Positions 2,836 to 11,654 of a stretch of 36,004 nt of DNA are shown here, in pieces. Source of the DNA: Parcubacteria group bacterium Gr01-1014_33 (GTDB lineage Bacteria > Patescibacteriota > Minisyncoccia > Sungbacterales > HO2-52-23); NCBI GenBank assembly GCA_007376125.1, contig VMFQ01000004.1, positions 1-36,004 on the forward strand, given 5' to 3'. The translations under genes and the position numbers were made by a program. Within the stretch, counting starts at the first letter, position 1; each line of letters begins with the position of its first letter. The notes beneath the pieces are model-generated. The model did not search any database, had not been told where the DNA came from, and saw only the letters and a list, made by a program, of their open reading frames with translations.

Positions 2836-3702
2836 TCAGTTATTTAAAAATTTTAAAACAGCGTTGTTAAATTGATCCGCCACTTCAATAAAAGGAACGT
2901 GCCCCACATTCGGAATCGTTGTGATCTTTGCATTCTGAAAAGATCTGAAGCTTGAGACAATTAGTCTGAGAGGGATAATTGTGTCTTTTTCTCCCCAAAT
3001 GATTAATGTTCTGTTCTTTATAGATCGTATCTTATTTGCTAATAGCAAACTCTGTCTCAATTTAATCAAACGGCTGACTAATAACAAAGTGGGCGATTTT
3101 TTCACTGTTGTATAAAAATAATCTATGAATTCTTGCTTGAGTTCTGTTTTCGGATTATGAAATGCACTTCGTAGAAATTTCTCCACATTCTTGTTTTCTC
3201 TCTCTGGTTTGAGTATTATTCGTGATATCAATTTTGCGAATGGATACCATGCGATCATCTTATCTTGAAGGGTCACCTGCGTTGAGAGACCTACGGAATC
3301 GACGACAACTACGCATCTAATCTGCTCTGGATGGGCTAATACTATCTTTAATGCTATCCAACCACCAATGGAATGTCCTACTATATGAAGCGATTGAAAG
3401 TGCTGATAATCAATAAATTTTTCAACAACCCGTACAAAATCATTCTCTGGATCAAGCGTTGCATAGTTGATTTCCGATGAACGTCCGGCTCCGGGAAGAT
3501 CGATTGCATATACCGTAAAGTGTTTCGAGAACTCGGAGATATTCGGATACCACATCCCCCAACCGAAATTCGCGCCGTGAATCAAAAGCATGGGCGGACC
3601 GCTTCCTGCAACGGCGTAGTTCACGTAATATTTATCAATTAATATTTGGTGAAGCTTTATATCGGCATTAATTGCTTTTATCAAGTTTTGTTCTGTATTC
3701 AT
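2836..3702 (-). CDS. alpha/beta hydrolase
   Basis: LLIHGANFGWGMW, nucleophile elbow GHSIGG, C-terminal GHVPFIE. Confidence 0.9.
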   Translation of the reverse strand: MNTEQNLIKAINADIKLHQILIDKYYVNYAVAGSGPPMLLIHGANFGWGMWYPNISEFSKHFTVYAIDLPGAGRSSEINYATLDPENDFVRVVEKFIDYQHFQSLHIVGHSIGGWIALKIVLAHPEQIRCVVVVDSVGLSTQVTLQDKMIAWYPFAKLISRIILKPERENKNVEKFLRSAFHNPKTELKQEFIDYFYTTVKKSPTLLLVSRLIKLRQSLLLANKIRSIKNRTLIIWGEKDTIIPLRLIVSSFRSFQNAKITTIPNVGHVPFIEVADQFNNAVLKFLNN

Positions 3703-3731
3703 GAATCTGGCCAGAATAATAGTTACACTGG

Positions 3732-4823
3732 CTATAAGCTATTTTCTTTATCAAAAAGTTTATCCAAGTCAATAAGCCATGATCTACTCGGTAATTCATG
3801 GCCCAGGAGAATCTTTTTTGCAAGATATACACTAAAGCCTGTTGCGGTCATCACGGTGCTTGCAAGTTGGGGTCTCCCAACGAGCGTCTTGCCTATTTCG
3901 GCGACCGATTCCAAAGCACGCGGCGGAATATGAGAAGTACCTGCAAGGTCAACTGCATATTTGTGTTTCTCTGCCGTAGTGATATCAGGATGTGCCAACA
4001 TTTCATAGGGTAAGCGACCAGCTCTCCCGTTAAAGAATTCAAGATTGCGGTTTAAATCATAACGTTCTACGTCTATGAGTACGCGATCACCAAGATTAGT
4101 GATCATAATAACTGGAATACCTGCTTCCCGTGCAAGTGCGCGGAGATGGATTTTCATCTCAAAGCCATCAATGATCTCAAATATGACCTTGGGTTTCGGT
4201 TCATGAGTGAGAAAACTAGTGAGTAGGTCCTTCGAAAGCCCCTCCTCAAAAGTGATTATCTCTGCAAAAGGGTCAATTTCATAAATTTGCCTTGCAGTCA
4301 GGTCAATCTTCTTTATGTAAATCTGGTCAATCCTTGCCCGGATACGGTTTAAATTCGTGGTTTCCAACACATCAAATTCTGCCAATTTGAAAACCTTACC
4401 AATGCCAGAGTAGACGAGCGTGGTTGCGACATTGCTTCCGACGGATAAGCCGATAATTCCAATGCATGATTCCGATAATAGGTGTTGCTCTTCTGCGGTA
4501 ATAAGATTTCGGTTGCGATTTGTGCGAAGTGCGAAATATTCTTCTTGGCGTATGAGGTGAACAAGCAAACCACTCCAAGGAAAATAAGCCCAATCCCCTT
4601 TCAATCTATCCACGCTTAAAACGCTTTTAATATAGCGGTTGAGTTCCGCATCATAGTTGGGCGAGCCAAGAAGATATGCATGGGTTATCTCAAAATATTC
4701 TTTGAGCTGTGCTTCATATATATCACGCTCTTCCCAAATTCGATATCTTTTCTTCAGATTATCAATATCCTTTGCAGAATATGTTCCCTCCCGCAAAATG
4801 ATTGGCTTATAGGCATTATTCAT
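3732..4823 (-). CDS. ThiF/E1-like adenylyltransferase domain protein, Rv1355c (MoeY)-type
   Basis: GIIGLSVGSNVATTLVYSGIGKVFKLAEFDVLETTNLNRIRARIDQIYIKKIDLTARQIYEIDPFAEI; later DRVLIDVERYDL and RPQLAS. Confidence 0.8.
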   Translation of the reverse strand: MNNAYKPIILREGTYSAKDIDNLKKRYRIWEERDIYEAQLKEYFEITHAYLLGSPNYDAELNRYIKSVLSVDRLKGDWAYFPWSGLLVHLIRQEEYFALRTNRNRNLITAEEQHLLSESCIGIIGLSVGSNVATTLVYSGIGKVFKLAEFDVLETTNLNRIRARIDQIYIKKIDLTARQIYEIDPFAEIITFEEGLSKDLLTSFLTHEPKPKVIFEIIDGFEMKIHLRALAREAGIPVIMITNLGDRVLIDVERYDLNRNLEFFNGRAGRLPYEMLAHPDITTAEKHKYAVDLAGTSHIPPRALESVAEIGKTLVGRPQLASTVMTATGFSVYLAKKILLGHELPSRSWLIDLDKLFDKENSL

Positions 4824-4832
4824 TGGAGTATA

Positions 4833-6365
4833 TCAGTTAGTTTTCTCTTTCTTTACCCATTTCTGTTTCCCACCGGGCTTGAAATGCTTCGGGTCCTGAT
4901 AGGACCAAAAAATAATTATAGGCGTCATTTTCCGACGAATACTTTCGTTTGCCCAGAAATCTCGCCATTCGGAATTTTCTTTATTCAGCCACGCAATAAT
5001 TGAATTGTGTGTCTTTTCTCGCAATAATTCACTCTCTACCGCCTTCGGGCGCAACTCCACATTGATTTCAAAATACTGATTTTGCTCTTCGTTATATCCC
5101 ACATATATGCTGAATTTCCCTGTCAGCGACTTTTGCAGTTCTGGATCTTCAAGTGCCTTCCTGATGCTTTCCGGATACACATTGACACTATAGATATTCA
5201 CCGTAAAATCAGTACGTTCCGCGACATATACAAAAGGCAACTGCCAAATAATATGGTCAATGCCTTCCTTTTTTGCTTCAGTCAAAAGGTCAATTCCATG
5301 TGCCGCATAGATGTCTAAAAATGCCTGCATGGTATACACATTGCCGCGGTCCTTCAGATCATATCGTACCAGCGGCAGTCCGCTCCGGCCGGAGCAAAGT
5401 AGCCGACCATCTACTTGCTCAAAAGAGTAAAACTCGGGGATAAATTGTGTCAGCGTCGGTAACCGGTCAGTTTCTGCAAACACGTCATGATAAAGATTGG
5501 ATTTTTTGACAGCAAGACGTCGCGCCAAAATAGAAAGTGGCGTCTCGTGCGACATGGTGCCCAAATCCGCAGTACCGTAATGGTTAATCGTAGCGGTATA
5601 TATATTTCGCGCTCCTCCATTCTTTATGATGTAATCTCTATACCCTTCAGTAAATCCCTCAGCGGCGAAAAAGTATTTTAGGTCATATTGAGACCAGTTG
5701 ACGCCCGCATCTATCCCGTCATCAATCAGATCCTTTACTAACGGCGCATATCCGCCGAGAATGATCTGATCAAAACGATGCCCGAGTCCTCTGACTGCTT
5801 TCAATGTCTCTATTTTATCAGCACCGGGTGTAATAATAGTCAGTTGGTATTCACCCCGATCAATAAGGTATTTGACCGCTTGATATGAAAACATTCCGCC
5901 AATCCAAACGCCAAGCGCGAAGCAATCAATGAATAAAGTGGACTTTTTGTCTATTTCAAAGTAATCCAGAAAAGCTAACTCTGCGGTTAACCCGAATTGT
6001 CGATCCTGAAAGCTCGTACGCGGAAAGTAGAATGGTTCACCTGTAGAGCCGGATGTTGAGGCGATTGTCCACTGCTTTTGCTTGAACATTCCGTCCCAGC
6101 AAAGAGACTCAAGTGGATATGATAAAAGATAATTCTCTTTATTGGTAATTGGAACGCGTCTGAAATCTTTGATTGTTTGTATAGTTGTGGGATTTGTATT
6201 GTGCTTTTGCAGAAAATCACGATAGGCGGGGACACGACTTGTCATTTCATGAAATAATGCCAAGACATCTTTCTCCCCGCGTTTGACCCAATACTCTTCC
6301 GGCTTTGTTTTTAACTCTTTGAGTAAGGCACGAGTCTTTCCCGAAAATTCATCTACAAGAAGCAT
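4833..6365 (-). CDS. Phenylacetate-CoA ligase (PaaK)-like adenylate-forming enzyme
   Basis: 510 aa; P-loop-like STSGSTGEP; GRSGLPLVRYDLKDRG motif. Confidence 0.8.
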   Translation of the reverse strand: MLLVDEFSGKTRALLKELKTKPEEYWVKRGEKDVLALFHEMTSRVPAYRDFLQKHNTNPTTIQTIKDFRRVPITNKENYLLSYPLESLCWDGMFKQKQWTIASTSGSTGEPFYFPRTSFQDRQFGLTAELAFLDYFEIDKKSTLFIDCFALGVWIGGMFSYQAVKYLIDRGEYQLTIITPGADKIETLKAVRGLGHRFDQIILGGYAPLVKDLIDDGIDAGVNWSQYDLKYFFAAEGFTEGYRDYIIKNGGARNIYTATINHYGTADLGTMSHETPLSILARRLAVKKSNLYHDVFAETDRLPTLTQFIPEFYSFEQVDGRLLCSGRSGLPLVRYDLKDRGNVYTMQAFLDIYAAHGIDLLTEAKKEGIDHIIWQLPFVYVAERTDFTVNIYSVNVYPESIRKALEDPELQKSLTGKFSIYVGYNEEQNQYFEINVELRPKAVESELLREKTHNSIIAWLNKENSEWRDFWANESIRRKMTPIIIFWSYQDPKHFKPGGKQKWVKKEKTN

Positions 6366-6586
6366 AATGTTTGGTTATTATTAAATATGGACTTACCCTC
6401 CTTCCTATTTTATTATTTACCAAGCCGCGGTTCAATATCCTACAGGTCTTGTGTTGTTTCCTTATTGTCAGCAGGCTTCGTTCTCATGGAGAGGAAAAAA
6501 TGTTGTCGTAATAATTATCAATATACTAAATTTCTAAACCGATTTCAGTCTGCCACTATGAATCTCTGTATTCAAGGCTGAAATCT

Positions 6587-7606
6587 TTACTCCACCGGAA
6601 TCGTAATATCCTCCACTCGTAGTCGTGGCGAGTGGAATGGAATGGATTTTGTATAGCCGAGACGGAAAAAAATTTGTGGCCGATGAGAAATACCCATAAT
6701 TTGCTGAAGTTCTACCACTTCAAAGGGAAGTGCATTTATAGAAGTTTGCAATCCGTCTCGCTCAGCTTCCAGTAGGATATGTTCCAATATACGCCCCACC
6801 GACAGCCACTCCTTCTTGCTATCTCCTTGAGATCCAATAAAGCCGAATACCGGTGTATGATCTACAAGAAGCGAAATCTCTTTAGTCCTGATAAACCGTA
6901 TAACATTTATGTATTTAATCAGAAATGGCGCAATGAGAGATAGAAAGTTACCAAATCCCATAGTGAATCCCGGCATGCCAATAGGGGAAGCGGTAAAATT
7001 AGTTTTTTTATAAGCCGCCATTTCTTTCCGGAATTCTTTATTTTCAAATTCTTTTTCCCGAAAACGGATTAAATATTCAGCAATAGCAATCTTTTTTGCG
7101 TGGTCTGATACAAAGTCTACATAGATATCGTGAGAACTATATTTTTTGAAGTGATCTATTATTCCGTTGCGTGGGAGTTCATTATCGTATGGATTCCGAT
7201 TGGAGCGTCGCTCTGGTATAGAAAAAATAAGGTGGTCGTGTAGGGATGATTGACGAGGGAGAGGTACCAAAGAAATTTTTGCCGTTGCGTCTGGAAACTC
7301 GTCGGGAAAGTATTCAATATCTGTAGGGAAACCAAAATAATCAGCCGCAATGGAAAAGTTTTCGATCGCACAACCTAATGCAATATATACATGCCGATTC
7401 AATGGATCGCTAACCGGTAAAAAACGAGCAGGATTACGCAATAAAAATAGAGCATTATTAATAATTTTAAAATCCCATGGTTGACTATTGTGGCTGGATG
7501 GAGCAAGTATTGCAAACTTAATCAAAAATCGCAAACGATCTCTATCGCTTTTCTGTCGATTGAATTCTTGTATATCAATATTCCATGCTTGATAATTGTT
7601 CTTCAT
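6587..7606 (-). CDS. Nitroreductase-like / Acg-type FMN-binding protein
   Basis: LAPSSHNSQPWDFKI; ERRSNRNPYDNELP; ALGCAIENFSIAADYFG. Confidence 0.75.
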   Translation of the reverse strand: MKNNYQAWNIDIQEFNRQKSDRDRLRFLIKFAILAPSSHNSQPWDFKIINNALFLLRNPARFLPVSDPLNRHVYIALGCAIENFSIAADYFGFPTDIEYFPDEFPDATAKISLVPLPRQSSLHDHLIFSIPERRSNRNPYDNELPRNGIIDHFKKYSSHDIYVDFVSDHAKKIAIAEYLIRFREKEFENKEFRKEMAAYKKTNFTASPIGMPGFTMGFGNFLSLIAPFLIKYINVIRFIRTKEISLLVDHTPVFGFIGSQGDSKKEWLSVGRILEHILLEAERDGLQTSINALPFEVVELQQIMGISHRPQIFFRLGYTKSIPFHSPRLRVEDITIPVE

Positions 7607-9446: not shown

Positions 9447-9719
9447 ATGCTTTCTCCGCAAGAAGAAACTTCGCAAAAAATAGCCATACGCCGCATTGAA
9501 ATAGGTAGTACGGTTACGGTGATGTTTCAATCTGGCGAAGCCATTGAATGCACGATTGTTCAGGCAATCCGCACTGATCCGGATCACTGCATCATCTCCT
9601 GCGAATCTCCTTTGGGCAAAGCTCTTCTAGGAAAAAGAGCCGGGGATACGGTAATCTACACCGTAGATGATCACGCCATTCAAGTTGATATCATACAAAT
9701 CTTTTCAGAAAAAAAGTAA
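9447..9719 (+). CDS. Stand-alone GreA/GreB C-terminal-domain-like protein (90 aa)
   Basis: CESPLGKALLGKRAGDTVIYTV resembles the GreA/GreB C-terminal domain; lacks the N-terminal coiled coil. Confidence 0.7.
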   Translation: MLSPQEETSQKIAIRRIEIGSTVTVMFQSGEAIECTIVQAIRTDPDHCIISCESPLGKALLGKRAGDTVIYTVDDHAIQVDIIQIFSEKK

Positions 9720-9768: not shown

Positions 9769-9798
9769 TTGACAACGATATTAACCAGGTAGCATAAT
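9769..9798 (+). promoter_or_regulatory. Putative sigma70-type promoter of the graspetide-like locus
   Basis: TTGACA (9769-9774), 18 bp, CATAAT (9793-9798). Confidence 0.6.
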
Positions 9799-9870
9799 AG
9801 ATATAGCCAGCTGGCATGCATGGTGCATGTCGAAATGCTGGCACCGGGTCTTTAACAAGGAGATACGCAC

Positions 9871-10071
9871 ATGGTATCGGGACAACTCATTCCTTTTGTC
9901 GCAGGTTTTATTGAGGAGGGGAGCGTGGAAGAAGGAACAGAAGTACCCCGCTCCTACTCCGAAGATGCCCAAATGGGCATCTGGAACGAGGGAGACCTCC
10001 TTAACCCCGTCTATCTATCCCCCACACAGCTCCATACGCCACGTGGGGATCATATAGGAGATGAGGCTTAA
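9871..10071 (+). CDS. Candidate graspetide (microviridin-like) precursor peptide, 66 aa
   Basis: MVSGQLIPFVAGFIEEGSVEEGTEVPRSYSEDAQMGIWNEGDLLNPVYLSPTQLHTPRGDHIGDEA; SD aaGGAG 8 nt upstream; directly precedes the ATP-grasp gene; PFVAGFIEE resembles the PFFARFLE leader motif; Ser/Thr- and Asp/Glu-rich C-terminal half. Confidence 0.75.
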   Translation: MVSGQLIPFVAGFIEEGSVEEGTEVPRSYSEDAQMGIWNEGDLLNPVYLSPTQLHTPRGDHIGDEA

Positions 10072-10090: not shown

Positions 10091-10128
10091 ACTATCGACC
10101 AACTGCCACGAAGTGGTTGGTCGATAGT
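10091..10128 (+). promoter_or_regulatory. Strong intercistronic RNA hairpin between precursor and ligase
   Basis: ACTATCGACCAAC…GTTGGTCGATAGT, 13 bp perfect and extendable with G-U pairs to about 16 bp, 6-nt loop, no poly-U tail. Confidence 0.8.
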
Positions 10129-10170: not shown

Positions 10171-11127
10171 ATGATTCTACTTATTACCAGAAAAGATGAT
10201 ATCCATGCTGATCTTGTCGTAAAAAATCTTGTAGAATTAAAAGCAAAATTTTTTCGCCTTAATACTGATTATTTATCTGACTATGAAATATCTCTTTCTT
10301 TAAATTCTGGATATATTCGCCATCCTGTTACTAAAAGATCAGTAAATTTATCAGAGGTGAAAAGTATTTGGATAAGACGAAGATCTTTGCCTGAAAAAAT
10401 TAAAGATGTTAAAGAGGAGTTTCGTTCGTTCTGCGAAGAAGAATGGTTACGTTTTTATCAAAATATTTGGTCAGTGTTAGAGGATCGATTTTGGATTAGT
10501 CCCCCATATGCGATCGACGCTACGCGGAGTAAGATGAAACAACTAATAATAGCTAGAGATATTGGTTTTCTTGTTCCGGAGACAATCATAACCAACTCTA
10601 TTGATGAAGTTATTGAACTGCAGAGAAAATTTAGTGTATGCATCTACAAACCTCATGATGGGGGAGCGCTCTCTACAGGATCAGATCAAATGATTTATAC
10701 TAATATTATAGATACCATATTAGAGAAATCGGAAGAACTAACAGAGAGCTTGAAGATCTGTCCTGGAATATTCCAGCCATATATTGAGAAAGATTACGAA
10801 CTTCGTATCAATGTAGTTGGTAACAAAGTTTTTGCCGCTAAAATTGATTCGCAGAAAAGCGATAAAACAAGGATAGATTGGAGAAGATATGACTTTAAAA
10901 ATGTCCCACACAGTATTTATCATCTTCCTCCAGAGGAAGAAAACAAATGTATTTCGCTATTAGAAAAATTAGGATTACAATTTGGGGCGATTGATATGAT
11001 AGTTACATCAGCTAAAAAGTATATTTTTCTAGAAATTAATGCTAATGGTCAATGGGCGTGGATCCAGTTACTGACAAAACAATTGATATCTTTTGAAATA
11101 GCGAGACTTCTTGCCATCCATGCGTAG
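10171..11127 (+). CDS. MvdC/MvdD-type ATP-grasp ribosomal-peptide maturase (graspetide ligase)
   Basis: SD AAGGAGG before ATG at 10171; MILLITRKDD, SIWIRRRSLPE, SPPYAIDATRSKMKQLIIARDIGFLVPETIITN, YKPHDGG, FQPYIEKDYELRINVVGNKVFAAKIDSQ, DWRRY, LGLQFGAIDMIVT, FLEINANGQWAWIQ. Confidence 0.9.
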   Translation: MILLITRKDDIHADLVVKNLVELKAKFFRLNTDYLSDYEISLSLNSGYIRHPVTKRSVNLSEVKSIWIRRRSLPEKIKDVKEEFRSFCEEEWLRFYQNIWSVLEDRFWISPPYAIDATRSKMKQLIIARDIGFLVPETIITNSIDEVIELQRKFSVCIYKPHDGGALSTGSDQMIYTNIIDTILEKSEELTESLKICPGIFQPYIEKDYELRINVVGNKVFAAKIDSQKSDKTRIDWRRYDFKNVPHSIYHLPPEEENKCISLLEKLGLQFGAIDMIVTSAKKYIFLEINANGQWAWIQLLTKQLISFEIARLLAIHA

Positions 11128-11171: not shown

Positions 11172-11654
11172 ATGAACAAAGAATTAAAAAAAATCTATAG
11201 GGAAGATCAGAAAGATAGAAGGAATCCTCTTTTCAAAACGGATTTTAGTCAATTTCGGAAAAGGGACCTTTTGCGTAAAAAGAAACTTGATACACTTTTC
11301 CGCTCTTGCCGGATAAAGACAGGAGAAGATTATTACCACGCGGCATTACTCTATCATCATAACCTTTCTACTGCGAGTTCAAAAAGGGCGGTTCGCCTTG
11401 CCAGAGTCAGTATTGAGTTGGGGACTAAAAAAGCACTGCGTCTTTACGCAATTACTATAGACAGATTATTAATCAAACAAGGCAAGAAACAAAAATTTGG
11501 TACTCAATATAGACTGATAAAAGGCACGTGGAGACTCTATTCGGTCGATCCTAAAACTACAAATACTGAACGCGCTTTATATAATATACCCCCACTTCCA
11601 CATATCAGAAGTGTGGCTTATGAGGACGACACGAAGAATGAAATTAAACGATAG
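11172..11654 (+). CDS. DUF6624-like protein
   Basis: 160 aa; YREDQKDRR…, KKQKFGTQYR…GTWRLYSVDPKTTNTERALYNIPPL resembles DUF6624 proteins. Confidence 0.6.
   Translation: MNKELKKIYREDQKDRRNPLFKTDFSQFRKRDLLRKKKLDTLFRSCRIKTGEDYYHAALLYHHNLSTASSKRAVRLARVSIELGTKKALRLYAITIDRLLIKQGKKQKFGTQYRLIKGTWRLYSVDPKTTNTERALYNIPPLPHIRSVAYEDDTKNEIKR

Follow-up and report, generated by a model that had tools for sequence, protein, structure and literature searches.

A probable single-core graspetide precursor in a compact patescibacterial gene cassette

Graspetides (omega-ester peptides) of candidate phyla, their leader motif and a number of associated unknown proteins have been described by Makarova et al. 2022 (PMC8939145), who stated the function of these peptides as an open question. 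RODEO groups of graspetides with members from candidate phyla and with DUF6624 were reported by Carter et al. 2026 (PMC13097080), where DUF6624 was found in groups 18, 20, 23 and 42 and flagged as perhaps representing biosynthetic enzymes of a class yet to be discovered. In the fuscimiditide system, an RPFG recognition segment and a dispensable leader linker are known (PMC13003496, PMC12291112); from truncations of the ThfA leader it was concluded that a short PF-containing segment suffices and that the remainder is linker (PMC13003496). The residues of fuscimiditide connectivity are T3, T7, D18 and D22 (PMC12291112).

Here we describe a locus from Parcubacteria group bacterium Gr01-1014_33, in a stretch of 36,004 nucleotides (contig VMFQ01000004.1, hereafter the window). 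The source assembly is 1.05 Mb at ~97% completeness, the class and phylum comprise genomes of 0.4-1.2 Mb in very many families, and the bacterium is probably host-dependent. We consider it highly probable that the product of the ORF at 9871-10071 is a graspetide precursor with a single core, and that the gene belongs to a compact cassette of the candidate phyla radiation. Reports on candidate-phyla graspetides from 2022 and 2026 make the kind a known one; the peptide itself is new, and its core pattern lies outside the published branch-1 signature.

The cassette and its relatives

The ORF at 9871-10071 (+) encodes 66 aa, and its translation, MVSGQLIPFVAGFIEEGSVEEGTEVPRSYSEDAQMGIWNEGDLLNPVYLSPTQLHTPRGDHIGDEA*, contains the segments PFVAGFIEE, SYSED and SPTQLHTPRGDHIGDEA. 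The ORF is real, at the coordinates and in the frame of the original prediction, and AAGGAG precedes its ATG as a good ribosome-binding site. A competing ORF (9827-10057) was dropped for want of a ribosome-binding site. The elements of the cassette are as follows; the promoter call is a consensus match alone and not evidence of function.

9769..9798, + strand: candidate sigma-70-type promoter for the cassette, TTGACA-18-CATAAT (consensus scan, 11/12 matches)
9857..9862, + strand: ribosome-binding site AAGGAG, 8 nt 5' of the ATG (sequence)
9871..10071, + strand: very probable graspetide precursor, 66 aa (ORF; profile rank 1/880; position and architecture common to relatives)
10091..10128, + strand: strong RNA hairpin in the gap that separates the precursor gene from the ligase gene (dinucleotide shuffles, z = -4.1)
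10171..11127, + strand: MvdC/MvdD-type ATP-grasp graspetide synthetase, 318 aa (PF21068, TIGR04185, PDB AMdnB)
11172..11654, + strand: DUF6624-like protein of 160 aa, putatively a partner or a tailoring protein (family context)

The ligase gene begins 99 bases downstream of the precursor gene. N-terminally, its product carries the MvdD pre-ATP-grasp domain (PF21068, above cut-off at 1.2e-13), and PF08443 (RimK-like ATP-grasp) was also matched above cut-off. The top NCBIfam models were TIGR04185 (3.1e-63, below the equivalog cut-off), TIGR04187 and TIGR04184, which ranged from 3e-63 to 3e-56 and each stayed under its own cut-off. Among solved structures, the top relatives (1e-38 to 7e-34) were AMdnB (1.1e-38), CdnC and two entries with the title "ATP grasp ligase". 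The DWR motif and the EINANGQW end are retained. By PF21068, PF08443 and AMdnB, the precursor gene adjoins a graspetide-type ATP-grasp ligase.

Relatives of the ligase were present in 25/384 genomes of a class sample and 15/380 of a phylum sample, the window's own genome counted, and in none of 12 other genomes of the family and 22 others of the order. None were found in viral contigs. In a tree of 45 ligases, whose deeper forks were without resolution, the window ligase was sister to that of L044 (support 100/97). L044, from another genome of the same class, is the closest relative found (ligase identity 39%) and displays the same gene order of precursor, strong hairpin, ligase and DUF6624-like gene. 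Its precursor has 49 aa, with the leader SPFAVRFGE and MEVETKVSPFAVRFGE...NATHLGQEGDEAC. In a locus from Chloroflexota (L002, 4519-4947), we observed a multicore graspetide precursor with a PIPFGLLFEE leader and several T-rich / D-rich repeats, which no NCBIfam model matched.

The 106-nt stretch bearing the hairpin folds at -35.3 kcal/mol (z -4.1). When other patescibacterial loci were folded, a stem of different sequence was seen in the same place; longer stretches dilute the z-scores of these loci, and the stems were judged by eye. Strong hairpins of unrelated sequence were noted between precursor and ligase in L044, L045, L048, L057-L059, L061, L062, L064 and L067-L070. A T-run is present in only some of the hairpins, so that attenuation or transcript protection is a putative role.

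Concerning the third gene, the 11172-11654 protein alone matched PF20329 weakly (0.011, below cut-off), and 6/7 aligned members of its family matched the same model (best 1.6e-22). Relatives lie near the ligase in about 19/31 patescibacterial loci. The family and the ligase occurred together in 12/368 genomes (one was present in 23 in all, the other in 25), giving a Fisher p of about 4e-10, or 3e-9 without the window's genome, a p that takes no account of phylogeny and comes from two samples that may differ by a few genomes. The family is also present in genomes in which no ligase was found, such as G002 from the window's own taxonomic family. The structural model (pLDDT 89) is mostly helical, and a fold search against PDB gave nothing below E 0.48; what resemblance there was, TPR-like or helical-repeat, was weak.

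We did not count the genes at 2836-6365 (alpha/beta hydrolase, AMP-ligase-like) as part of the cluster: they are encoded on the opposite strand, a TrmB-type regulator lies in between, and the sister cassette does not have them alongside. Also in the window, a ThiF/E1-like protein, a PaaK-like AMP-ligase and an Acg-type nitroreductase are encoded in tandem (3732-7606, minus strand); the first and last of these each match one half of NF005901, the Rv1355c family model, and are here separate genes with the ligase-like gene in between. An IS3-type transposase pair (216-1297 and 1163-2806, assigned by eye) overlaps at its end the 3' end of a histidine kinase-like gene, whose C-terminus looks swapped for element sequence. 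Upstream of the cassette, 9447-9719 encodes a GreA/GreB C-terminal domain by itself, without the coiled-coil.

Leader and probable linker of the precursor

The N-terminal and middle parts of the precursor contain two elements.

9889..9918, + strand: leader recognition motif, I7-PFVAGFIEE-E16, of the form P-h-h-x2-h (published motif; leaders of relatives)
9946..10017, + strand: leader/linker element PRSYSEDAQMGIWNEGDLLNPVYL, which contains SYSED (aligns with linkers in L002-L005, L076-L078 and L081)

The motif P-h-h-x(1,2)-h reported in graspetide leaders (PMC8939145) is present within the first 30 residues as P8-F9-V10-A11-G12-F13. PFVAGFIEE resembles the leaders IPFILGFLE, LPFVLTLLE and IPFGLLFEE of relatives, and its designation as a leader in the original prediction is supported on both counts. 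In a leader-only profile the precursor ORF ranked second in the window, which makes the leader motif on its own weak evidence.

Broader support came from the neighbourhood of the ligases. Under a loose rule (ribosome-binding site, leader regex and core regex, <=520 bp upstream of the ligase), precursor-like ORFs were found in 14/32 patescibacterial loci, where the remaining DNA of these loci gives an expectation of 0.33. Many of these candidates carried IPFILxFLE-type leaders and TxSGT...D..D cores. We also built a linker-type profile from the leaders and linkers of graspetide precursors belonging to other phyla, leaving the window peptide out. With it, the precursor ORF took the first rank among 880 window segments (E 0.008, against 0.88 for the runner-up) and scored above all 5000 of its own shuffles, narrowly so for the best of them (12.2 vs 11.2 bits). 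It was again first with the PF block removed (9.8 vs 9.1 for the best shuffle). A profile mixing all 18 precursors, both those that have a linker and those that lack one, did not put it first, because two architectures had been forced together. Taken with the ester-type core and the synthetase gene 3', the leader motif bears out the view that the peptide is a RiPP precursor, and very probably, judging from these sequence comparisons, a graspetide precursor.

Database results count against this view. None of the NCBIfam and Pfam models matched the precursor, and TIGR04186 (GRASP_targ, putative ATP-grasp-modified RiPP) gave no match to it even at E 10 and none in its own genome; the L003-L005 precursors, as positive controls, scored above cut-off. 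A search in 380 phylum genomes gave no ortholog, returning only the precursor itself and one marginal match in a 313-aa frame.

The original prediction had also raised the possibility of two macrocyclic domains, one of them around SYSED. The alignments point elsewhere. The region 9946..10017 aligns with Y[DSN]xxxQ / PGxYSxxxxWVV linkers (also written Y[DSN]xxxQ / PGxYSxxxxW) in graspetide precursors from other phyla. PRSYSEDAQMGIW, inside which SYSED sits, aligns with PGQYSDDFGMWVV (L077), PGRYSHELGVWVV (L081), PGYYSEELDMWVV (L078), LPGHYDPARQLWV (L003) and SHYGYDHDQQIGV (L005), and SYSED was also aligned with the linker LSHYGYDHDQQIGV. In the aligned L003, L005, L077, L078 and L081 precursors, this element stands before single or repeated cores. 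It is not present in the L044 precursor, nor in the compact patescibacterial precursors, whose leader passes almost directly into the core (for example MPFILLFLEERKGAIAPTTSGTWNDIDGADAA of L067). These alignments and absences, together with the truncation results on ThfA, lead us to regard SYSED as part of the leader/linker. Homology with the linkers of other phyla is likely rather than certain, since the margins over the best shuffles are small.

Core peptide and alternative readings

With SYSED assigned to the linker, one core is left: TQLHTPRGDHIGDEA. It looks as though only the tail of the precursor, and not two separate blocks, becomes cyclic.

10018..10068, + strand: core peptide SPTQLHTPRGDHIGDEA (fuscimiditide-like stem spacing; MAFFT core columns)

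Alignment with relatives and motif statistics indicated T52, T56, D60, D64 and E65 as spaced potential donors and acceptors. T52-x3-T56 and D60-x3-D64 have the spacing of the fuscimiditide stem, with a 3-residue loop, PRG (Pro-Arg-Gly). As TxxxT...DxxxD matches that stem, we predict two nested esters, T56-D60 (inner) inside T52-D64 (outer), with about even chances against other pairings; E65 may be an alternative acceptor in the outer ring. Among shuffles of the precursor, 0.01% contain TxxxTxxxDxxxD[DE] in its strict form, a figure that is no independent test as the pattern was read from the precursor itself. The published branch-1 signature TxxxTx(6-10)Dx(1-4)D was not found in the precursor by regex (core, TxxxTxxxDxxxDE). 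The sister core NATHLGQEGDEAC of L044 has another spacing, so the exact pairing is without covariation backing. The PRG loop would fall short of the loop sizes at which the fuscimiditide enzyme works efficiently: engineered loops of <=3 residues mainly underwent a single dehydration by ThfB (PMC12291112), and the inner ring may thus not form here.

Three other readings were weighed. That the ORF is untranslated or no precursor, and that the ligase modifies another peptide elsewhere or a protein, would fit the missing database family and the patescibacterial ligase loci without an obvious precursor, which are likewise known from PMC8939145; the ribosome-binding site, the leader motif, the first rank among 880 segments, and an ORF position and hairpin as in relatives make this very improbable. 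We would be equally surprised by two macrocyclic domains, with SYSED in one ester ring and the C-terminal block in another. S28 and S30 do lie near E31 and D32, and multicore graspetide precursors exist, such as those with T-rich / D-rich repeats in L002, L003, L077 and L078. However, the repeats of true multicore precursors resemble each other, whereas the SYSED region is unlike the C-terminal block, aligns with a single-copy element of other phyla and is missing from the nearest relative and the short patescibacterial precursors. Conservation of S/T and D/E positions in homologues, which the original prediction had named as decisive, is thus lacking for SYSED. For SPTQLHTPRGDHIGDEA the type of ester block is maintained, but its individual residues are not, as the core differs from one locus to the next.

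A single core with another ring pattern is a much more serious contender, to which we give somewhat less than an even chance. Crossed or parallel esters, or three rings, could be formed, for instance from S50 or T52 to D60 together with T56 to D64/E65, or from S50/T52/T56 with D60/D64/E65. Three hydroxyl and three acidic residues are on offer, rosaritide contains three interlocking macrolactones, and the sister core retains ...T....EGDEA instead of DxxxDE. Against this, the core spacing fits the nested fuscimiditide stem, and acceptor choice in the fuscimiditide system is Asp-selective, which speaks against E65.

Proposed maturation and comparison with known systems

In the single-core reading that we prefer, the PFVAGFIEE segment would recruit and activate the downstream-encoded ATP-grasp synthetase, and a flexible linker (aa about 17-49, with SYSED) would present the C-terminal core. 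The synthetase would phosphorylate Asp side chains, which nearby Thr hydroxyls would attack, and the predicted nested omega-esters, in which E65 may replace or add to D64, would close a small stem-loop with the loss of two waters. The hairpin 3' of the precursor gene may keep the precursor transcript above that of the ligase, and the DUF6624-like protein may serve as a partner or in tailoring. After that, some protease would cut off the leader (no C39 peptidase was found in the own genome), and the peptide would presumably be exported. A full scenario, in which a minimal two-ring hairpin with a 3-residue loop can be made only with the help of the DUF6624-like protein and is released by the bacterium to act on its host or on competitors, strikes us as unlikely.

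Small, probably host-dependent bacteria keep few biosynthetic genes, and a conserved cassette of precursor, ligase and DUF6624 therefore suggests a useful peptide. With three genes, the cassette is short enough for whole expression and lets the role of DUF6624 be tested.

Compared with microviridin (MdnA with MdnB/MdnC), the locus shares the ligase family and the role of the leader motif. It differs in its precursor sequence, which has no PFFARFL leader and no microviridin-type core, in its one ligase rather than two, and in having no adjoining acetyltransferase or peptidase-transporter. With fuscimiditide and pre-fuscimiditide (ThfA/ThfB) it has in common a PF-type recognition segment, a dispensable linker and the TxxxT / DxxxD stem with nested esters, the dispensability and the esters being predictions for the window peptide; the loop is 3 residues here and 10 in fuscimiditide. 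No PIMT-type O-methyltransferase was present among the family-scanned genes around the cassette, and unlike in fuscimiditide, no aspartimide is therefore predicted. RODEO groups 27 and 42 (PMC13097080) likewise have members from uncharacterised candidate phyla, and group 42 is rich in DUF6624. The CPR graspetide loci of ATP-grasp branches 1 and 2 (PMC8939145) resemble the window in the kind of organism, the single MvdC/D-like ligase, the small precursor with its P-h-h-x(1,2)-h leader and T...T...D...D core, and the uncharacterised associated proteins, whereas the window peptide is set apart from them by its TxxxTxxxDxxxDE core, in place of TxxxTx(6-10)Dx(1-4)D, and by its longer linker.
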